Below are positions 11,548 to 49,375 of a DNA stretch of 64,000 nucleotides, piece after piece. The position numbers and the translations under genes are program-made. The stretch is taken from the NCBI GenBank assembly GCA_020853635.1, contig JADYYN010000194.1, positions 1-64,000 of the forward strand, written 5' to 3'. The stretch comes from Gemmatimonadaceae bacterium. GTDB lineage: Bacteria > Gemmatimonadota > Gemmatimonadetes > Gemmatimonadales > Gemmatimonadaceae. The notes beneath the pieces were generated by a model. It made no database searches, was not told the DNA's origin, and was given only the letters and a program-made list of their open reading frames with translations. Position 1 is the first letter of the stretch. Each line of letters opens with the position of its first letter.

Positions 11548-12026
11548 TCGTTCGTGCGGCGCGACCGAAGGATCACGCTGGGGTGCTCGCGATGAACAAC
11601 GCCGCGACCCCCAACGTGAACGCGCTGGCGCAGCATGAATTCGATTGGATCGTCGAGCGTGCCGCCTACTTCAAGGTGGCCGAGGATGCCGAGGGGCTCG
11701 CGGGGTTCGTGCTCTGCGTGCCTTCGGGGCTCGACTACTGGAGCAACAACTACAAGTGGTTCACGGCGCGGTTCAACGAGTTCTTGTATCTGGACCGCGT
11801 CGTGGTCGCCGCGCGGACCCGCGGGAAGGGTGTCGGCACGCGGTTGTACGATGATCTGCACGCGACGGCGAAGGGCCAGTGGCCGCGCGTGACACTGGAA
11901 GTGAACCTACAACCGCCCAACCCAGGCTCGGTGCGATTCCACGAGCGACTCGGCTATGTGCCGGTGGGGGTGCGGGAGTATGACGAGGGGCGAGCGGTGG
12001 TGCAGATGTATGAACGGCAGATGTGA
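11544..12026 (+). CDS. GNAT family N-acetyltransferase
   Basis: 160 residues with a complete GNAT fold. Motif A reads VVVAARTRGKGVGTRLYDDL (about 91-110) with the acetyl-CoA pyrophosphate loop RTRGKGVG, and motif B is the VNLQPPNPGSVRFHERLGYVPVG region near residues 121-143. GNAT enzymes move an acetyl group from acetyl-CoA to an amine; the acceptor is unknown. Its GTG start overlaps the stop of the VPS10-like gene by 4 bp. The last codons, QM-stop, lie inside a purine-rich intergenic repeat (see 12018-12125). Confidence 0.88.
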   Translation: MIVRAARPKDHAGVLAMNNAATPNVNALAQHEFDWIVERAAYFKVAEDAEGLAGFVLCVPSGLDYWSNNYKWFTARFNEFLYLDRVVVAARTRGKGVGTRLYDDLHATAKGQWPRVTLEVNLQPPNPGSVRFHERLGYVPVGVREYDEGRAVVQMYERQM

Positions 12027-12125
12027 GATGGGAGATGTGAGGAGGCCGCCCGTACGGGCGGCCTTTCTCACATTTCGGTTCTGCATCGCCGTGCTTCACC
12101 TCTCACATCTCCCCTCTCACATCTG
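12018..12125. repeat. Inverted pair of purine-rich repeats enclosing a terminator
   Basis: The plus strand at 12018-12042 begins CAGATGTGAGATGGGAGATG and ends TGAGG. The minus strand at 12125-12099 begins CAGATGTGAGAGGGGAGATG. The arms match over about 25 bases with two differences. A further partial copy lies at 12065-12076. Both convergent genes (GNAT on plus, fabI on minus) take their last codons, Gln-Met-stop, from these arms. A GC-rich palindrome sits between the arms. The core GGGAGATGTGAGA recurs at other sites in this window. Confidence 0.85.
12043..12064. terminator. Bidirectional terminator hairpin between GNAT and fabI
   Basis: A perfect palindrome with 11-bp arms, AGGCCGCCCGT and ACGGGCGGCCT, followed on the plus strand by TT and a pyrimidine stretch. 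It lies between convergent genes, so it can serve both. Confidence 0.75.
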
Positions 12126-27581: not shown

Positions 27582-27686
27582 GTGCATACACCCATTCGTA
27601 AAATCTATCCGGCGCTCGCCAGCGCAGTCGCCCACGCCTGGCAGCCGCTCGCCGTGGCACTCATCGGGATCGCGATCCTGAAGTAG
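27582..27686 (+). CDS. Possible 34-residue small membrane protein
   Basis: A GTG-started frame of 34 codons with GGAG at 27571-27574, seven bases upstream. The product has a basic N-terminus (HTPIRKIYP) and a hydrophobic C-terminus (LAVALIGIAILK), so it could be a single-pass membrane peptide. It overlaps only the optional extended N-terminus of the divergent AstE-like gene. No homologue is known to me, and a chance frame is quite possible. Confidence 0.35.
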   Translation: MHTPIRKIYPALASAVAHAWQPLAVALIGIAILK

Positions 27687-27740
27687 GACCGCAGCAGCCC
27701 GGCGACGCTCCAAGTCGCCGCGCGGGGCGCTAAGTTTGGG

Positions 27741-27795
27741 GGATGTGAGAGGTGGCGATCCGTCGTGCCTCTCACTTCTCACATCTCCCATCTCC
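27741..27795. repeat. Inverted purine/pyrimidine repeat in the ettA leader
   Basis: GGATGTGAGAGG at 27741-27752 faces CCTCTCAC and CTCACATC on the same strand at 27768-27785, so the leader RNA could fold. The minus strand at 27795-27768 reads GGAGATGGGAGATGTGAGAA and continues GTGAGAGG, a full copy of the repeat family. The pyrimidine-rich side ends 12 bases before the GTG of ettA. Confidence 0.75.
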
Positions 27796-27806
27796 GATCT
27801 CGATCC

Positions 27807-29480
27807 GTGGCCCCACAGTTCATCTATGTGATGAAGGCGCTCAAGAAGGTGATCCCACCTTCGCGCATCATCCTCGACGATATCTGGCTGTCGTTCTACC
27901 CCGGCGCCAAGATCGGCGTCCTCGGCCCCAACGGCGCCGGCAAGTCGTCGCTGCTGAAGATCATGGCCGGCGTCGACACCGATTTCCAAGGCGAAGCCTG
28001 GGCCCACAAAGGCACCCGCGTCGGCTATCTGCCGCAGGAGCCGCAGCTCGACGAGTCGCTCGATGTGCGCGGCAATGTCGAACTCGCCGTGAAGGCGCAG
28101 CGCGACCTGCTCAAGCGCTTCGAAGCCATCTCGGCCAAGTTCGCCGAGCCGATGAGCGATGACGAGATGAACGCGCTCATCGAGGAGCAGGGCAAGGTGC
28201 AGGAGCGCATCGACGCCCAGGACCTCTGGAACCTCGACAACAAGATCGAGGTGGCCATGGACGCGCTGCGCCTGCCGCCCGGCGACGCCGGCGTGAAGAA
28301 CCTCTCCGGTGGCGAGAAGCGTCGCGTGGCACTGTGCCGCGTGTTGCTCGAAGAGCCGGACATGCTGCTGCTCGACGAACCCACCAACCACCTCGACGCC
28401 GAGTCGGTAGCATGGTTGGAGCACTATCTCGAGAGCTTCCCCGGCACCGTGGTCGCGATCACGCACGATCGCTACTTCCTCGACAACGTCGCTAAGTGGA
28501 TCCTCGAGCTCGACCGCGGGCGCGGCGTGCCGTACGAGGGCAACTACTCCGGCTGGCTCGACCAGAAGCGCACGCGTCTCGCGCAGGAAGAGAAGATCGC
28601 GTCGGCCCGACAGCGGTCACTCGAGCGCGAGTTGGAGTGGGTGCGCATGGCGCCGCGCGCACGGCAGGCCAAGAGCAAGGCACGACTGCAGAAGTACGAG
28701 GAGCTGGCAAGCGAGGCGCAGCAGGAGAAGATCGCCGCGAACGAGATCATCATCCCGCCGGCGCCGCGTCTGGGCAACGACGTGGTGATCGCGAAGGGGC
28801 TCACCAAGGGCTTCGGTGACCGCCTGTTGATCGACAAGCTCGACTTCTCGCTGCCGCGCGGTGGCATCGTGGGCGTGATTGGTCCCAACGGCGCGGGCAA
28901 GACGACGCTGTTCCGCATGATCACCGGCCATGAGCAGCCCGATGGCGGCAAGCTCACGGTGGGTGAGACGGTGAAGCTCGCGTATGTGGATCAGTCGCGC
29001 ACGCTCGACCCGAACAAGACCGCGTGGGAGGAGATCTCGGGTGGTAACGAGTCTATCCTCGTGGGCAAGAAGGAGATGAACACGCGCGCGTACCTCTCGA
29101 GCTTCAACTTCAAGGGCACCGACCAGCAGAAGAAGGTCGGTATCCTCTCGGGCGGTGAGCGCAACCGCCTGCATCTGGCGAAGACCGTCATGAGCGGCGG
29201 CAACCTGCTGCTGCTCGACGAACCGACGAACGACCTCGACGTCGACACGCTGCGCGCGCTCGAAGAAGCGTTGGTGGACTACTCCGGCTGCGCCGTTGTG
29301 ATCTCACACGATCGTTGGTTCCTCGATCGTCTGGCCACGCACATCCTCGCGTTCGAGGGTGACTCCGAGGTCGTGTGGTTCGAGGGCAACTATCAGGCGT
29401 ACATCGAGGATCTGCGCCGACGGAAGGGCGCGGACGCGGATCAGCCGCATCGGATCAAGTTCAAGCCGTTGGTGCGGTAA
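27807..29480 (+). CDS. ettA: ABC-F translation factor EttA (energy-dependent translational throttle)
   Basis: 557 residues, close to the 555 of Escherichia coli EttA. Two ABC ATPase domains are present. The first has [17 protein letters not shown] and [10 protein letters not shown]; the second has [17 protein letters not shown] and [10 protein letters not shown]. The first domain carries the arm insertion (about 95-140), and the linker is the basic, helical P-site tRNA-interacting motif (about 250-320). No membrane domain exists, so it is a cytosolic factor that binds the ribosomal E site and couples translation to the ATP/ADP ratio. The GTG at 27807 aligns with the family's N-terminus ([12 protein letters not shown]). 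Confidence 0.95.
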
Positions 29481-29530
29481 GGGCAGGTGGGAGGTGTGAG
29501 GTGTGAGGGGGGCGCCCGTGCGGGCGCCCC
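29481..29530 (+). repeat. 50-bp direct repeat, copy 1 (starts right after the ettA stop)
   Basis: Begins at the base after TAA with GGGCAGGTGGGAGGTGTGAG and ends in the GC hairpin. It is identical over 50 bases to 31039-31088. The first part, GGGAGGTGTGAGG, is a variant of the purine-rich repeat core. Confidence 0.9.
29509..29530 (+). terminator. Rho-independent-like terminator after ettA
   Basis: 10-bp perfect arms GGGGCGCCCG and CGGGCGCCCC around TG, followed by TCTT. It is part of the 50-bp repeat. Confidence 0.7.
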
Positions 29531-29601
29531 TCTTGCGTGAGGAACTGATTCCGCGGCAGGCTGGTAGCATCAGATGCGGTCCGCTTTCATCGCGAGGTGG
29601 T

Positions 29602-31038
29602 ATGCAGCGAGATGTGCAGGCCGATGATCGGCGATGGGGGCGAGTGCGCCGTGCGATGATCGCGCGGCTTCTCGTGGTGATCCTGGCTTTGCTGCTAGTC
29701 GTGACCTCCTCGGGATCGCTCCGCGCGCAGGGCACGATCCGCGGCGTCGTGCTCGACTCGCTCTTCGCGCGTGGGCCGCTCGCGGGCGCGACGGTGATGC
29801 TGCAGGGCGCTCCGCAGACCGCGGTGAGCGACAAGTTCGGGCGCTTCGTGCTGCGTGATGTCCCCGCCGGCCGCTATCAAGTCGCCTTTTTCCATCCGAT
29901 CCTTGATTCGCTCGAAATCTCCGCAGCGCCCATCGCCGTCGACGTGCGCGATGGCGCAGCGGTGCCCGTGACGCTCGGCATGCCATCGGTCGCACGAGTG
30001 GCCGCGGCGCTCTGCGGTACCGGGCTCGAGACGTCGACCGGTGTGGTGTTCGGAGTGGTGCGCGACGCCGAACGTGCGATGCCGCTCGACAGCGTGGAGA
30101 TCGGCGTGCACTGGTATGTCGCGACGTTCGAGCAAGGCGCACTGCGCGAGTCGCGTGCCGCGGTACGGACGCGCTCAGCCAGTGACGGACGTTATGTGCT
30201 CTGCGGAGTCCCCAACGATGTGGCGACCACCCTCGTCGCAGAGCGCGGTGCGCAGCGGACCGGTGACCTCCAGATCTCGCTCGCGGATGGTGACCTGGCA
30301 CGTCGCGACCTGTTGGTCAGCCTCAGCGACACCGCTGCGCGTCGCACACCGCTGATCATCGTCGACACACTCGCGCCCACCGCACCACCCGGCAGCGCGC
30401 GTTTGCGTGTGCGGGTGGTCGACGCGCGTGGGCGCGTCGTGAGCGGTGCGCTCGTCGGCGTCCGTGGGTCCCGTGCGAGCGCCACGACCGACGCGGACGG
30501 TCGCGTGTTCCTCACGCGGTTGCCTAGCGGATCGCAGTCGTTGCTGGTGCGGAAGGTCGGTCAAGAGCCGGTCCAGCAGGTGGTCGGTCTGCGTCCGGGC
30601 ACGGACGTGGAGGCGACGGTGCTCCTCGACCGTCGCATCTCGGTACTTCCGACCGTTGCGGTGACCGGACGCGCCGTCAACAAGACCCGACTCGATCAGG
30701 ACATCGATCGTCGCGTGAAGGCCGGCTTCGGCTACCTGTACGACGAGAAGGCGGTGCGGCGCGCGACAAGCTCACTCTCCTTCTGGGCGACGGTACCCGG
30801 TGTGCGCGTCGTCAACGACGGCTTCGATGCGCTGCCGATCATGCGCGACGGACGTGGGGACATGTGCGTGCCCAACATCCTGTTCGACGGCACGTTGATC
30901 TCCAACATCGGTGCGTGGGAGCTTCGGACGTATCTGGTCGGGAGCAGACGGATGGAGGTGTATCCGTACGCAGGCACCCGACCGGCGGAGTTCCCGCAGG
31001 GGATCGACTGTGGGGTGATCGCGATCTGGTCGCGGTAG
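29602..31038 (+). CDS. Exported protein with carboxypeptidase-regulatory-like domains and a TonB-plug-like end, no barrel
   Basis: 478 residues from the ATG at 29602; an ATG at 29656, directly before the signal peptide, is an alternative. After the signal (ending SLRAQ) come beta-sandwich domains of the CarboxypepD_reg type (GTIRGVVLDS, FGRFVLRDVPAGRYQV; STGVVFGVVRDAER; RLRVRVVDARGRVVSGALVGV with TDADGRVFLTRLPSG). The last 130 residues resemble a TonB-receptor plug: an LFDGTLI segment, then RRMEVYPYAGTRPAEF and a CGVIAIWSR end. A normal receptor would continue into a 500-residue barrel, which is missing. The gene is flanked by perfect 50-bp repeats. It may be a periplasmic or surface protein that uses the plug as a binding module. 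Confidence 0.8.
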   Translation: MQRDVQADDRRWGRVRRAMIARLLVVILALLLVVTSSGSLRAQGTIRGVVLDSLFARGPLAGATVMLQGAPQTAVSDKFGRFVLRDVPAGRYQVAFFHPILDSLEISAAPIAVDVRDGAAVPVTLGMPSVARVAAALCGTGLETSTGVVFGVVRDAERAMPLDSVEIGVHWYVATFEQGALRESRAAVRTRSASDGRYVLCGVPNDVATTLVAERGAQRTGDLQISLADGDLARRDLLVSLSDTAARRTPLIIVDTLAPTAPPGSARLRVRVVDARGRVVSGALVGVRGSRASATTDADGRVFLTRLPSGSQSLLVRKVGQEPVQQVVGLRPGTDVEATVLLDRRISVLPTVAVTGRAVNKTRLDQDIDRRVKAGFGYLYDEKAVRRATSSLSFWATVPGVRVVNDGFDALPIMRDGRGDMCVPNILFDGTLISNIGAWELRTYLVGSRRMEVYPYAGTRPAEFPQGIDCGVIAIWSR

Positions 31039-31088
31039 GGGCAGGTGGGAGGTGTGAGGTGTGAGGGGGGCGCCCGTGCGGGCGCCCC
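31039..31088 (+). repeat. 50-bp direct repeat, copy 2 (starts right after the plug-protein stop)
   Basis: Identical to 29481-29530 and again starting at the first base after a stop codon (TAG at 31036-31038). Both copies end in the same terminator-like hairpin. Confidence 0.9.
31067..31088 (+). terminator. Rho-independent-like terminator after the plug-protein gene
   Basis: Same 10-bp stem as at 29509-29530, followed by CTTCT. Confidence 0.7.
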
Positions 31089-31170
31089 CTTCTGCGTTCC
31101 GGTGCCTGCGGAGTTCGCCTAGGGGTTCAGCGTAGTCGCAACCTGCGCGCGAGTCACGGAGGAACCCCTA

Positions 31171-31223
31171 TGGCGTAACACTCTACCAAATGCACATATA
31201 GTAATACCACAATGATCAGGAGG
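31171..31223 (+). promoter_or_regulatory. AT-rich leader with -10-like TATAGT and strong ribosome-binding site
   Basis: TATAGT at 31197-31202 lies in an AT-rich island unlike the surrounding DNA. AGGAGG at 31218-31223 is five bases before the ATG at 31229, one of the best Shine-Dalgarno sequences in the window. No clear -35 box is seen. If used, the leader is short, about 20 bases. Confidence 0.4.
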
Positions 31224-31228
31224 ATCGC

Positions 31229-31744
31229 ATGCGCACCACTCGGTTCACTCGCAGCGTGCTGGCTGCCGTCACACTCTCGTTCGTCGCCGTTCCCCTCATC
31301 GCGCAGGGCGGGCGGGCATCGCCCCCGCGCACCGGGGCTCCGCAGAACCCGCAGGCAGGTCAGGCGCAGACGGCGGCGCAGCAGCAAGCGCATCAGCAGA
31401 TGATGACGCAGATGCAGAACACGGTACAGCGGGCCCAGCAGATCCAACAGCGAGCGCAGACGCTCGCGCAGCAACTCCAGCAGCGCACCCAGGACCGCAC
31501 GCAGCTCACCGAACGGGACCGCCTGATGCTCGGGACCTGCGAAGCGCTGGAACAGCAGGCGCGTCAGATGCATCAGTTCGCCCAGCGCGCGGAGGAGATG
31601 ATCCGCAGTCGGGAGTTCCAGCGCGACCGAGACATGCAGCAGGACATGGATCGGTTGCGTCTGCGGCTCGAAGCGATGACGAAGGAAATGGATGAAAGCC
31701 TGAAGCTCATGGAGCGCGTACGCGATCGTACGCGGACACCGTGA
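31229..31744 (+). CDS. Secreted Gln-rich coiled-coil protein
   Basis: 171 residues with a signal peptide (ending LIAQ). The mature protein is almost wholly helical: a Gln/Ala-rich stretch (about 45-90) followed by heptad-like charged helices (about 90-165), with a single Cys. No catalytic motif is seen. The stop overlaps the GTG of the following barrel-like gene by 4 bp, so the two are probably made together; a periplasmic chaperone or adaptor role for its partner is a guess. The family is not recognised. Confidence 0.72.
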   Translation: MRTTRFTRSVLAAVTLSFVAVPLIAQGGRASPPRTGAPQNPQAGQAQTAAQQQAHQQMMTQMQNTVQRAQQIQQRAQTLAQQLQQRTQDRTQLTERDRLMLGTCEALEQQARQMHQFAQRAEEMIRSREFQRDRDMQQDMDRLRLRLEAMTKEMDESLKLMERVRDRTRTP

Positions 31745-32661
31745 ACGGCAGTACATCGGGCACACGGGTCGGCCGCCGCACGTGGCGGTCGGCCCGTGTC
31801 ATCGGCGCTATCGTAGCGATCGCGGTGGTGCCGGCAACTTCCGATGCGCAACAGATCGACTACAACTCCTCCGTGACGGCATCGCGAGGGACGTTCGTGT
31901 TCAGCGAGGCCACCACGAGCTGGGCGTTCGATCAGGGTCTGACGGTTCACGCCTCGCGCTGGCGATTCGGAGCGAGTGTTCCGCTCATCTTCCAGAACAG
32001 CAGCGCACTCACGTACATCGGCGGCATCCCGCTGCCGACCGGTGGCCCGGGGGCTGCGGCGGTACGCGGACGCACCACCGGCACCACGGTCCCGATGCGT
32101 GGACGGCGTGACACGCTGGCGGCCCCAGGCAGCGCGCTGGTCGAATCGCCGGGTGCGATGTCGCTGGAGGTGGGAGACCCCGTCGTGCACGCGGCATGGA
32201 ACGTCGCGCTCGCCGATCGATCGAGAGTCCGCATGGGCGTCAAGGCGCTGGCCAAGATCCCTGTCGCGGATCCATCGAGCGGCGTCGGCACGGGCGAGTT
32301 CGACAGCGGCGTCGGTGTCGACGTCTCGGTGATCACGGCACGCGCATTCTTCTATGCCGATGCGACCCATTGGTGGCTGGGTGACATGCCGGATCTCCCA
32401 CTCGGCGATCTGACCACCGTAGCCATGGGTCTCGGGCGGTCGCTCGATGGGCGAGGGAGGGTCTCAGCCTTGGCCACGATCACGGCAGCGACTGCACTTG
32501 TCGACAACCTCGATCCGCCGGTCGCGCTCGGACTGAGCCTGGGCATCGCTGTCGCGGAGCGCCGGTACGTGACGTTGAGTGGCGCGGCGGGACTGACCGA
32601 GAGCGCACCGGATTGGGCGGTCAGTGTCGGCTGGAGGGTGTCATTGACGCGGTCGCCGTAG
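31741..32661 (+). CDS. Putative outer-membrane beta-barrel protein
   Basis: 306 residues with an N-terminal signal-like segment (about 18-36, ending SDAQ). The remainder alternates short amphipathic strands and loops: SSVTASRGTFVFSEATTSW, WRFGASVPLIFQNSSALTYIGG, RVRMGVKALAKIPVA, and a final aromatic strand WAVSVGWRVSLTRSP. This resembles transporter-type or phenol-meta-pathway outer-membrane proteins, but the family is not certain. It is coupled to the coiled-coil gene upstream. Confidence 0.68.
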   Translation: MNGSTSGTRVGRRTWRSARVIGAIVAIAVVPATSDAQQIDYNSSVTASRGTFVFSEATTSWAFDQGLTVHASRWRFGASVPLIFQNSSALTYIGGIPLPTGGPGAAAVRGRTTGTTVPMRGRRDTLAAPGSALVESPGAMSLEVGDPVVHAAWNVALADRSRVRMGVKALAKIPVADPSSGVGTGEFDSGVGVDVSVITARAFFYADATHWWLGDMPDLPLGDLTTVAMGLGRSLDGRGRVSALATITAATALVDNLDPPVALGLSLGIAVAERRYVTLSGAAGLTESAPDWAVSVGWRVSLTRSP

Positions 32662-32678
32662 CCGCGACCTCCGATCCA

Positions 32679-33302
32679 CTACTCGTGCTTCATCGTACCT
32701 TCGGCCAGACCGATGTGATGCTGCACGTGATGGTCGCCGAGCGTGAGCAGGCCGTGGAAGCCCAGCGCGCGGAGCCGGGCAAGCGCGCGCGCGTCGGCTT
32801 GCGCGCTTCCGCTCGCGCGCACCCGCACCGTCACCTCGGCGCCGTCGGGGATCTCTCGGGCGCTCCAAGTGAAGCCATCCGGCGCCGAGACGGTCATGCC
32901 GTGCGCCATCGCCATGCGACGGATCGCGTCGCGCGTGCGCCCCGTGCCGGTCACGGCGAACACCACGCCGCCATCGATCGTCTGCGGTGTCACCGCGGCG
33001 CGCATGGTGACGTCGTCCATATCGATGAGATGTTGCCGAAGCACTTCGAGGTTCACCCGCGCCCAGTCGGTCTTGGGGTCAGCGCTCAAGATCCGCACCA
33101 CCTCGGCGAGGGTGGCGAATGCCTCCTGGCCGGCGCGTGTCGGTGTGGGTCGCGTGGCCGCCTGCGCTGAATCGTGCGACATCCCTGGCGTGTGGACGTG
33201 TGCCGGCGCGGACTGTCCAGTGGTTTGTGCCTGCGCCACGAAGGGCGCGAGCAGCGTGACCAAGGCGAGTGACGCGGCGGCAGCGAACGGGCGGAGGATC
33301 AC
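32679..33302 (-). CDS. Exported protein of unknown function
   Basis: 207 residues from a GTG at 33302, chosen for the GGAG six bases upstream and because it starts a signal peptide (ending VAQAQ). The mature part has a His/Ala/Thr linker and then a compact alpha/beta domain (about 55-205) with LAEVVRILSADPKTDWARVN, LRQHLIDMDDVT and a repeated sheet (VVFAVTGTGRTRDAIRRM; LGFHGLLTLGDHHVQHH). The His-rich end could bind metal. I do not recognise the family. It is convergent with the barrel-like gene, 17 bp apart. Confidence 0.7.
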   Translation of the reverse strand: MILRPFAAAASLALVTLLAPFVAQAQTTGQSAPAHVHTPGMSHDSAQAATRPTPTRAGQEAFATLAEVVRILSADPKTDWARVNLEVLRQHLIDMDDVTMRAAVTPQTIDGGVVFAVTGTGRTRDAIRRMAMAHGMTVSAPDGFTWSAREIPDGAEVTVRVRASGSAQADARALARLRALGFHGLLTLGDHHVQHHIGLAEGTMKHE

Positions 33303-33469
33303 AGGCGACTCCAGCAAGGGACGTGTGGTCGCGGTGAGAGCGGGCGACCACTGCCTGCACGTTAGCACCGCCGACACTCGTCTGGCAGCAGGGGGCGGCC
33401 GGCGCTAACGTTGCGCAGCGCCGCCCACTCGAAGACCGCGTGCGGCGCCCCCACCGGGAAGAGGTCCCC

Positions 33470-35728
33470 ATGCCCCGCATCTCACAGTTGCTCTTCCGGC
33501 GCACGTGTGCCGTGTCCGCCGCGCTCCTCGCACTCGCCCCGGCCGTGTCGCCCGTGGGTGTCGGTGCACAACGACCGTCAGCCACGCGAGCGGCCGCTTC
33601 GGCCGCGATGCCAGCACGCGCACCGTTCACGCTCGAGCAGGTGATGAGCGCGCCGTATCCCACGAATCTCACCGCAGCGCGCAGCGGCGAGCGTGTCGCG
33701 TGGACGCTCAACGCACGCGGCCAGCGCAACATCTGGGTGGCGGAGGGGCCGACGTTCACCGCGCGGCGCCTCACCGACTACCTGCAGGATGACGGGCAAG
33801 AACTCAATGCCGTGCAGATCTCCGACGACGGCAAGTGGGTGGTGTTCATGCGCGGCGGCGATTTCGGATCCAACTGGGACGACGCACTCCCGGTGAACCC
33901 GACCGGTGCGCCGACCCCGGTGAAGGTCGAGATCTGGACCGTGCCGTTCGCCGGTGGCACCCCGGTGTCGATCGGCGAAGGCATCAATCCCGTGCTGTCG
34001 CCGCGCAGCGACGTCATCGTGTTCGAACGCGCGCGCCAACTCTGGTCGGCGCCGATCGACGGCTCCGCGCCGGCGAAGAAACTGTTCGAGCAGCGCGGCA
34101 ATGCGACCGGCGCACAGTTCTCGCCCGACGGCTCACGCCTCGCGTTCGTCAGTGGACGCGGTGACCACGCGTTCATCGCGGTATATACCGACAGCGCGAC
34201 GCCGATCCAGTATCTCGCACCGAATACGAACCGCGACTGGAGTCCACGCTGGTCACCCGATGGCTCGCAGATCGTATTCGCGCGACGCCCCGGGGCGGGC
34301 GGACCGAGCGCCAACTCACTCGAACCACAGCCGGCGCCGTGGAGCATCTGGATCGCCGACGTCACCACTGGCCGGGCGCGCCCCCGTTGGGTGAGCGACA
34401 CCACACTGCGCGCGAGTGTGCCCTCCACGCACGGCGGTGTGAACCTGCACTGGGCCGCGAACGACCGTCTTGTGTTCCTGAGCTATCAGGATGGGTGGCC
34501 ACATCTCTACTCCATGCGGGCCTCTGCATCCGACGCGCCGATGCTACTCACGCCCGGCGATCATATGGCGGAGTACATCACGCTCTCCGCCGACGCGAAG
34601 TACCTCCTCTACGCCGGCAACTTCGGCAGCACGGCGGGCGACATCGATCGTCGCCACGTGGTGCGCGTGCCGGTGGACCGCGCCGCACCGGAGGTGCTCA
34701 CACCGGGCAGCGGCGTCGAGTGGACGCCGGTGTCGATGGCGAGTGGTCGCATTGTCGCGATCGGCGGTGGTGCACAGCGACCGCCGGTGCCATTCGTGCT
34801 CGAAGCCGCCGGTGATGCGCGTCCGAGTGCGACCACGCCGCGCCGTTGGGTCGGCGAGCAGCTCGTCCCGGCGGACTTCCCCACCACGCAGTTGGTGACG
34901 CCCAAGCAGGTCGTGTATCGCGCGGCGGACGGAACGACCGTACACGCGCAGCTGTTCGAGCCGCTCGGCACGGGTGAGGCGCTCGCCGCGGGCCAGTCGC
35001 CGGGCAAGCGGCCGGCGATCGTGTATGTACATGGTGGCCCGCCGCGGCAGATGCTCCTGGGTTGGCACTACGGCGACTACTACTGGAATGCGTACGCGAT
35101 GAACCAGTATCTCGCCAACCGTGGATTCATCGTGCTGTCGATCAACTACCGACTCGGCATCGGGTACGGACATGACTTCCATCGTCCGGCGAAGGCGGGC
35201 ATCGCGGGGGCCAGCGAGTATCTCGATGTGAAGGCCGCCGGCGAGTGGCTCAAGCAACAGCCCAACGTGGACGCGAGCCGGATCGGGATCTATGGTGGAT
35301 CGTACGGTGGGTATCTCACCGCGCTCGCCTTGGGCCGCGACTCCGACCTGTTCAGCGCCGGCGTGGACATCCATGGCGTGCACGACATGACGAGCGAAGG
35401 CGGCTCGCGCTTCGGCGCGAGTGCGTGGCGCTTCGAACGGTCGGCGCAGGAACTCGATGCGCTGGCGCGCACCGCATGGGAGAGCTCGCCGGTGTCGGCG
35501 GTGAAGACCTGGCGCTCGCCCGTGCTCATGATCCACGCCGACGACGACCGCAACGTGCGATTCAGCCAGACCGTCGACCTACTGCAGCGTCTGCGCGCGC
35601 AGCGCGTGGAGGTCGAGGAGATCACCATCGTCGACGACACGCATCACTTCATGCGGCATGAGAACCAGAAGCGTGTGAACGCCGCGATCGCGGAGTATCT
35701 CGAGCGCAAGCTCAAGCCGGTGATGTGA
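33470..35728 (+). CDS. Exported S9-family prolyl oligopeptidase-type serine peptidase
   Basis: 752 residues. The ATG at 33470 has GAAGAGG just upstream and starts a signal peptide (ending VGVGAQ). The N-terminal beta-propeller is of TolB/WD40-like repeats (for example GAQFSPDGSRLAFVSG, SPRWSPDGSQIVFA). The C-terminal catalytic domain has YVHGGPPRQ as oxyanion segment, nucleophile GGSYGG (Ser611), Asp in HADDDRNV (about 692) and His725 in DDTHHF. This is the dipeptidyl/acylaminoacyl-peptidase group, which cleaves short peptides, here in the periplasm. It runs into the MBL gene by a 1-bp overlap. Confidence 0.92.
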   Translation: MPRISQLLFRRTCAVSAALLALAPAVSPVGVGAQRPSATRAAASAAMPARAPFTLEQVMSAPYPTNLTAARSGERVAWTLNARGQRNIWVAEGPTFTARRLTDYLQDDGQELNAVQISDDGKWVVFMRGGDFGSNWDDALPVNPTGAPTPVKVEIWTVPFAGGTPVSIGEGINPVLSPRSDVIVFERARQLWSAPIDGSAPAKKLFEQRGNATGAQFSPDGSRLAFVSGRGDHAFIAVYTDSATPIQYLAPNTNRDWSPRWSPDGSQIVFARRPGAGGPSANSLEPQPAPWSIWIADVTTGRARPRWVSDTTLRASVPSTHGGVNLHWAANDRLVFLSYQDGWPHLYSMRASASDAPMLLTPGDHMAEYITLSADAKYLLYAGNFGSTAGDIDRRHVVRVPVDRAAPEVLTPGSGVEWTPVSMASGRIVAIGGGAQRPPVPFVLEAAGDARPSATTPRRWVGEQLVPADFPTTQLVTPKQVVYRAADGTTVHAQLFEPLGTGEALAAGQSPGKRPAIVYVHGGPPRQMLLGWHYGDYYWNAYAMNQYLANRGFIVLSINYRLGIGYGHDFHRPAKAGIAGASEYLDVKAAGEWLKQQPNVDASRIGIYGGSYGGYLTALALGRDSDLFSAGVDIHGVHDMTSEGGSRFGASAWRFERSAQELDALARTAWESSPVSAVKTWRSPVLMIHADDDRNVRFSQTVDLLQRLRAQRVEVEEITIVDDTHHFMRHENQKRVNAAIAEYLERKLKPVM

Positions 35729-36651
35729 TGCGGCGCGCCGTGTGGTGTCTCGGGTTGGTGTGCGTGCTCTGCGCTGACGCGATGTCGGCGCAGACAGCCT
35801 TGGCGCCTCCGGTGCCCACCACCCAACTCGTCGTGCTCGGCACCGGCACGCCCAACGCGGACCCGGATCGCAGTGGACCCGCGCTCGCGGTGGTGCGCGC
35901 AGGGAAGTCGTATCTCGTGGACGCCGGGCCGGGCATCGTACGTCGTGCAGCGGCGGCAGCGCGCAACGGCGTGGAGGCGCTCGCCCCGCAGAACCTTCGC
36001 GTGTTGTTCCTCACACATCTGCACAGTGACCACACGGTCGGGCTGCCGGACGTGATCTTCACCGCGTGGACCCTCGAGCGCGATGTGCCGCTCGAGGTCT
36101 ATGGGCCGCCGGGCACCAAGGCGATGATCGAACATTTGCTCGCCGCGTACGCCGCCGACATCCGCAATCGCATCGATGGCGCAGAGCCGGCGAACGCGCA
36201 GGGTTACAAGGTGAACGTGCATGAGATCACACCCGGTGTCGTGCTCAATGACGGGAACGTCACGGTGCGTGCGTTCGCCGTGCCGCATGGGGACTGGGAC
36301 GTGGCGTTCGGGTATCGCTTCGACTCCGCGGACCGCTCGATCGTGATCTCCGGCGACACCCGGGCCAGTGACGCCGTGGTGACCGCCTGCAACGGGTGTG
36401 ACCTACTCATGCATGAGGTCTACTCCGCCGACCGATTCCAGACGCGACCGCCCGAGTGGCAGCGGTACCATGCGCGCGCACACACGAGCACGGTCGAACT
36501 CGCCGCACTCGCGCTGCGGGCGCAGCCGCGTCAACTGGTACTGTACCATCAACTCTTTTGGGGCACCGATGACGCCGGCCTGCTCAGCGAGCTCCGTCGG
36601 GCGGGGTACACGCGCGCGGCCAGTGCCGCGCGTGATCTGGCGATCTACTGA
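35728..36651 (+). CDS. Exported MBL-fold metallo-hydrolase
   Basis: 307 residues with a signal peptide (ending MSAQ). The metallo-beta-lactamase fold has THLHSDH (His97, His99, Asp101, His102), a further HG in VPHGDWDVAFGYRF, ISGDTRASD for the bridging Asp, and a late YHQLFW His. The layout resembles ribonuclease Z/arylsulfatase-like MBL hydrolases, which cut phosphodiester or sulfate esters; the exact substrate is unknown. The ATG overlaps the peptidase stop (TGATG). Confidence 0.88.
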   Translation: MRRAVWCLGLVCVLCADAMSAQTALAPPVPTTQLVVLGTGTPNADPDRSGPALAVVRAGKSYLVDAGPGIVRRAAAAARNGVEALAPQNLRVLFLTHLHSDHTVGLPDVIFTAWTLERDVPLEVYGPPGTKAMIEHLLAAYAADIRNRIDGAEPANAQGYKVNVHEITPGVVLNDGNVTVRAFAVPHGDWDVAFGYRFDSADRSIVISGDTRASDAVVTACNGCDLLMHEVYSADRFQTRPPEWQRYHARAHTSTVELAALALRAQPRQLVLYHQLFWGTDDAGLLSELRRAGYTRAASAARDLAIY

Positions 36652-49340: not shown

Positions 49341-49375
49341 CCCCTCTCCCATCTCACATCTCCCCTCTGCCCCTA
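49341..49375. repeat. Purine-rich repeat copy in the OsmC leader
   Basis: On the minus strand, 49371-49341 carries GGGGAGATGTGAGATGGGAG, a close copy of the repeat family; the plus strand is pyrimidine-rich and ends 3 bases before the OsmC ATG. It therefore occupies the place of the ribosome-binding site. Confidence 0.75.

Follow-up and report, generated by a model that had tools for sequence, protein, structure and literature searches.

Within the window, that is, the whole 64,000-nucleotide stretch of DNA analysed, an ettA-like gene and the gene that follows it on the same strand are each succeeded by the same 50 bp. The two copies, designated M1 and M2, are identical over this length, as had been claimed in an earlier sequence-only reading, and lie 1558 nt apart, start to start. 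Extended leftward, the match reaches 57 nt (29474-29530 and 31032-31088, 98% identity), and its sole mismatch falls in the stop codon, which is TAA in ettA (29478-29480) and TAG in the CarboxypepD_reg/plug-like gene (31036-31038). The features are as follows, including three further members of the array family described below.

12025-12041, plus strand: further member, A-type array with hairpin CCGCCCGTACGGGCGG; the intergenic region is convergent and has two arms, and this array recurs with its hairpin at G000:C21:9664
27778-27794, minus strand: further member, an A-type heptad array that lies antisense immediately 5' of ettA; a G-type array stands at the same place in the relative G003
27807-29480, plus strand: ettA-like ABC-F ATPase gene (predicted start), with two ABC_tran domains and ABC_tran_Xtn; its 3' end bears M1
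29481-29530, plus strand: module copy M1, the left 50-bp repeat; identical behind ettA in G003
29484-29511, plus strand: heptad array of M1, CAGGTGG GAGGTGT GAGGTGT GAGGGGG
29509-29530, plus strand: GC hairpin of M1, terminator-like, GGGGCGCCC GTGC GGGCGCCCC, then TCTT
29656-31038, plus strand: gene between the repeats, for a secreted protein with CarboxypepD_reg domains (PF13620), one of many paralogues
31039-31088, plus strand: module copy M2, the right 50-bp repeat; not present behind the plug gene of G003
31042-31069, plus strand: heptad array of M2, the same four units as in M1
31067-31088, plus strand: GC hairpin of M2, then CTTCT
31229-32661, plus strand: two genes, for products of 171 aa and 306 aa, on the right-hand side of M2; gone from G003 along with M2, and directly behind ettA in G010
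49346-49362, minus strand: further member, A-type array, with no obvious hairpin directly behind

M1 and M2 are built alike, each with four heptads (a period-7 array of AGGTGTG) followed by a GC hairpin with a 9-bp stem and a GTGC loop, and both are one-armed, lacking an opposed second array. The folding z values of the two copies are -2.75 and -3.19, none of 200 shuffles being equally stable, while the T-runs on the 3' side of the hairpins are short and weak. Of the earlier claim that both copies end in the same terminator hairpin, the stem is well supported and the T-run less so; the hairpin is probably the intrinsic terminator of both ettA and the plug-like gene. No match to known RNA families was found in 27600-32800. 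The protein encoded between the repeats had been described as a barrel-less plug; it does carry CarboxypepD_reg domains, while Pfam gives no TonB plug domain at thresholds up to E = 10. Its own genome contains about 15 more matches to it, and 40 of the 41 relatives searched have homologues.

The heptads of this pair are part of a much larger family. With up to three mismatches allowed, the heptad 17-mer has 10 matches in the 64-kb window against 0.22 expected, and the pair is therefore not a product of chance. In the window's own genome (G000, a draft of 295 contigs, 84% complete), the 17-mer core of the array, GAGRTGKGAGRTGKGAG, has 105 exact matches dispersed over the genome and the reversed control pattern has none; the consensus is the G-rich heptamer GAGRTGK. 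The full 50-bp unit, by comparison, was found in the assembly at these two places alone, and the matches that come next reach 85-87% over about 55 bp. The 50 bp as a whole are accordingly not the common terminator module that the sequence-only reading had considered, whereas their heptad part is common, and modules sharing a hairpin are found by other neighbouring genes.

A census of 65 arrays, in about 0.52 Mb of G000 stretches picked for having arrays, was made with genes called by a home-made, simple coding model (gene starts being model-based). Four units make up 29 of the arrays and five units 22. The position relative to genes is strikingly regular: the median gap to the ORF boundary is 5 nt at the 5' end of the G-rich strand, as against 83 nt from the 3' end to the next gene, and the 5' side is the one nearer to an ORF in 56 of 63 arrays. 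At stop edges 35 of 38 arrays lie within 20 nt, and at start edges, where the array is antisense, 15 of 25; some arrays even reach into the ORF and provide its stop codon (gap -9). A looser array detection gives the same tendency (86/100, p = 8e-14), as do the relatives G003 (11/12) and G010 (15/18), whose stretches were mostly chosen regardless of arrays. Starting at a stop codon, pointed out before for M1 and M2, is correct for this pair and nothing special to it, being a property of the whole family, whose members begin at ORF edges, stops and starts alike.

Where an intergenic region has two arms, these face inward without exception (21/21 regions in G000, 29/29 in all genomes), and both arms are of the same subtype, GAGATG or GAGGTG, in 15 of 16 typed G000 regions (p = 0.003). 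The outer flank of the arrays is often GAACGGCAG. The hairpin is missing at many array sites, and terminator-like hairpins are found at 15 of 51 array-bearing 3' ends and 16 of 99 others (p = 0.09); with so weak an association, we rejected the array as a general terminator part. The likeness of GGAGGTG to a Shine-Dalgarno sequence was also dropped, since the heptamers of sister species do not have it.

Other repeats share the intergenic DNA of G000. A second dispersed tandem family has nine-base units, CACAGAGGG or CACAGAGGA and also CACAGGGG, often joined by GAACTGC or GAACGGC (L306:1015-1483, L311:3700-4043, L319:1019-1401, L323:7418-7884), with a counterpart, CACCGAGG, in G015. In addition, a dispersed repeat of 80-110 bp, with the sequence GATGCGGGGTGACCGACGGTACGGGGCGCGGGGT..., occurs in at least six intergenic regions of this genome at 86-94% identity (L320:4955-5158, L323:4431-4652, L324:4813-5162, L340:3634-4340 and L349:3610-3784 among its sites). 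The motif AACKGC, which recurs where repeats begin or end and could pass for a connector of repeat modules, is about twice as frequent in G000 intergenic DNA as an order-3 model predicts (96 observed, 46 by the model).

Including ettA and the plug gene, three pairs of adjacent genes are known to carry the same hairpin. At L305 (G000:C27), two arrays 1379 bp apart are accompanied by nearly the same hairpin, but the arrays themselves are of different types (A-type and G-type). At L301 (G000:C13), similar hairpins (GGGGCGCGCC...GGCGCGCC) stand in two intergenic regions that follow one another. Here the order of events can be polarised: the first module is common to G000, G003 and G010, and the second, on the next gene, is present only in G000, the corresponding site being 22 bp without an array in G003 and also arrayless in G010. 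Because two relatives are without it, the second module is most simply explained as acquired in the G000 lineage by copying of the adjacent one, and this case supports local copying of modules. Among same-strand module pairs within 6 kb, two of six share a hairpin, a score reached by 18 of 2057 different-locus pairs, many of which owe it to the opposite heptad arm and not to the hairpin.

The relatives that we compared, whose genomes were read in part only, belong to the same genus as the window's organism by kinship assignment, and within it the arrays are distributed patchily: counts are 105 in G000, 66 in G003, 65 in G007 and 141 in G010, and 0-7 in the others. Sister species with few or no GAGRTGK units have period-7 arrays of their own, built on GACGGAK (G005) or GAGTTGK (G012), G003 has GGATGGT as a second heptamer unit, and period 7 stands out against periods 5, 8, 10 and 11 in the relatives. 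At the level of the phylum, one or more matches are present in 27 of the 395 genomes sampled. A contig scan across genomes finds isolated arrays in many phyla among the matches listed, which speaks for presence there and is silent on relative abundance. The reversed control pattern has many matches in a few other genera, those of G255 (43+34), G236 and G058, and these suggest further genus-specific heptamers of similar make-up.

Site by site, G000 and G003 differ considerably. Of 72 regions compared, 60 have no array in either genome, and the 12 array sites of G000 in regions common to both have a strict array in both at six. The other six have no strict array in G003 and show no obvious target duplication, the flanks being heavily diverged; at some arrayless sites the intergenic region is also much shorter in G003 (26 bp for 158 bp in G000, and 22 bp for 94 bp). 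Moreover, at orthologous sites the whole array may differ in type, A-type in one genome and G-type in the other, with the hairpin unchanged, a pattern that points to replacement of arrays as units.

At the ettA locus itself, the nearest relative compared is again G003, with an ettA that is 97% identical in amino acids and 90.7% in DNA. The 50 bp behind ettA are identical in both genomes, even though 133 of 549 third codon positions of the gene differ; at that divergence, the chance of an unchanged 50 bp is about 1e-6. Judging from this identity, M1 predates the split of G000 and G003 and has been constrained or homogenised since. Old copies can thus stay identical, so that of the recent duplication of a terminator module proposed earlier we retain the duplication, which fits best, and give up the word recent; gene conversion, proposed alongside it, is a possible origin of the pair. 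G003 keeps the plug gene and has neither M2 nor the 171-aa and 306-aa genes, a convergent gene standing directly behind the plug gene. There the plug stop joins TAGCCG-ACC, as found behind the stop of the 306-aa gene in G000. The simplest reading is probably that G003 has lost, by deletion, the segment between the plug stop and the stop of the 306-aa gene; the junction agrees with this, although the match is short. Since M2 and the next two genes are missing jointly, the lost piece lies beyond the right end of the plug gene and does not correspond to the unit between the repeats. Nor does the absence of M2 from G003, on the deletion reading, fix its age, and we dropped M2 as a recent gain on account of the two missing genes and the junction. 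A joint transfer of M1 and the final Arg codon from ettA to the plug gene was likewise considered and dropped, because the plug homologues of G010 and G007 end in Arg as well.

The set of genes directly behind ettA varies to an unusual degree within the genus (window 27807-36651; L107, L111, L115-L117, L342), the plug gene, the 171-aa and 306-aa genes, the convergent gene, a TolB-like gene and a metallo-hydrolase gene occurring there in differing subsets. In G009 and G001 the 306-aa gene adjoins a plug homologue. This variability, with G010 having no plug gene and its ettA followed at once by the 171-aa and 306-aa genes, and the fact that the direct repeats enclose exactly one gene, would suit the proposal of the sequence-only reading that the 1.5-kb plug-gene unit may have entered, or may leave, by homologous recombination between the 50-bp repeats. 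Such recombination would leave one module behind, whereas G010 has no heptads behind ettA; G003 shows the opposite state, with the plug gene and without the second repeat; and in G015 a purine-rich repeat of another kind and a hairpin stand between ettA and the plug gene that follows it, with nothing of the sort behind the plug gene. In the comparison of relatives, which had been suggested as a check, no genome has lost the gene and retained one repeat. We therefore rejected excision of the plug gene, and consider the recombining unit as a whole highly improbable.

The modules could be the ends or remnants of a non-autonomous, MITE-like element with inward arms and AACGGCAG outermost, served by a transposase in trans; the constant inward orientation and shared subtype of paired arms, the recurrent outer flank and the shorter arrayless sites of G003 are all compatible with this. 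Yet the RAYT/Y1 transposase (PF01797, Y1_Tnp), which is present in other families, has no match in the own genome, where absence is weak evidence in a draft, or in 16 same-genus genomes, which agree with it; the search covered the Y1 family and so leaves room for a DDE or tyrosine enzyme. No target-site duplication was seen at inspected sites, arm length and unit sequence vary, the heptamer differs among species, and the unit type changes at orthologous sites while the hairpin inside stays, all of which makes an element of this kind unlikely. A similarly unlikely account, in our view, is that selection and not copying keeps arrays and hairpins alike, through a function in termination, as a G-quadruplex, as an RNA-binding site or in Rho loading on the C-rich strand. 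The unchanged 50 bp in G000 and G003 and the strict ORF-edge polarity would agree with it, as would the regular YC dinucleotides that the C-rich strand is expected to present. Other orthologous arrays, however, do not share a single unit between G000 and G003 (A-type as against G-type), so that a fixed array sequence is not required, and many orthologous genes do without any array, as in the 60 regions mentioned above.

On balance, we favour with some confidence the interpretation that M1 and M2 are copies of one dispersed gene-edge module, copied locally, that the hairpin is probably a terminator and that the flanked gene was not inserted. The module would consist of a (GAGRTGK)n array that starts within a few bases of an ORF edge and is directed towards the intergenic DNA, in this case with a GC hairpin added, and would be copied locally from the 3' end of one gene to that of its neighbour. 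The arrays could provide short homologies at which gene conversion takes place, or at which the template is switched in the course of replication or repair, a neighbouring gene end thereby receiving the module; coding constraint would then hold the arrays at ORF edges, and the hairpin would end transcription. By analogy, the M1/M2 pair may have arisen like the L301 pair. The evidence is compatible with copying in either direction and at an early or late date, M2 having probably been lost from G003 with the two genes. As to the array as such, it may be either neutral or a selfish sequence. It is also tempting to speculate, though we regard this as doubtful, that a species-specific process rewrites the arrays genome-wide, which would amount to active homogenisation of these short arrays with no known transposase involved; the idea comes from the units GAGRTGK, GACGGAK, GAGTTGK and GGATGGT within one genus and from the switches from A-type to G-type with the hairpin kept.

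What looked like a single odd repeat, and was considered a possible mark of a mobile gene behind ettA, thus becomes a described family, and the mobile-gene reading is removed. Our literature search found no report of such repeats in Gemmatimonadota, most subscription papers lying outside it, and searches with the array sequences and on Gemmatimonas intergenic repeats returned nothing relevant. As both the heptamer and the sites occupied vary among close relatives, the genus could be used for testing how arrays spread and become uniform, a question common to all heptamer repeats.

Several known systems resemble the family in part. REP/BIME elements, which are associated with RAYT transposases, are palindromes with a GTAG-type foot that are dispersed, extragenic, often in inverted pairs and often by 3' ends. 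The GAGRTGK arrays share this dispersal, extragenic position, frequent inverted pairing and frequent location by 3' ends; they differ in being tandem heptads and not palindromes with a foot, in that the hairpin of M1 and M2 is a separate part, and in the lack of RAYT in the genus. The STRR heptanucleotide repeats of cyanobacteria (Calothrix) are tandem heptamers dispersed in noncoding DNA; they have this in common with the present arrays, with other unit sequences and in another phylum. In marine Beggiatoaceae, cyanobacteria and Bacteroidetes, TAACTGA direct repeats lie mainly just upstream of start codons in sense orientation (MacGregor 2015, PMC4679880). Those are likewise short, dispersed heptamer arrays that adjoin ORF edges and are patchy over taxa, but TAACTGA is not G-rich, and GAGRTGK arrays adjoin stop as well as start codons, their G-rich strand invariably running outward from the ORF.

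The closest likeness is to the G-rich GGGNATC heptamers of Xanthomonas and Nostoc, which are dispersed and intergenic, with about four units, single or in inverted pairs, nearer to the 5' ORF whatever its orientation, often overlapping a stop codon and without a link to insertion sequences (Rehm et al. 2015, PMC4692102). Unit length seven, tandem order, the G-rich strand, the proximity to the 5' ORF (56/63, medians 5 and 83 nt) and the preference for about four units (29/65 with four, 22/65 with five) are all found again here, and the ORF-edge rule of those repeats is thereby valid for a different heptamer as well. The consensus differs, GAGRTGK as opposed to GGGNATC or GGGGAYT, and a GGG tract arises in a GAGRTGK unit only if K is G; the units of M1 and M2 mostly have GTG, with a lower predicted quadruplex potential than GGGNATC. 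Retention also differs, 83% of sites being kept between two Xanthomonas species (PMC4692102) as against strict arrays in both G000 and G003 at 6 of 12. Unlike the Rehm repeats, moreover, the present ones differ in heptamer between related species, and modules with their hairpin appear to be copied between neighbouring genes. Judged by sequence, the GAGRTGK arrays are a sister kind to the Rehm class and not the same sequence family.
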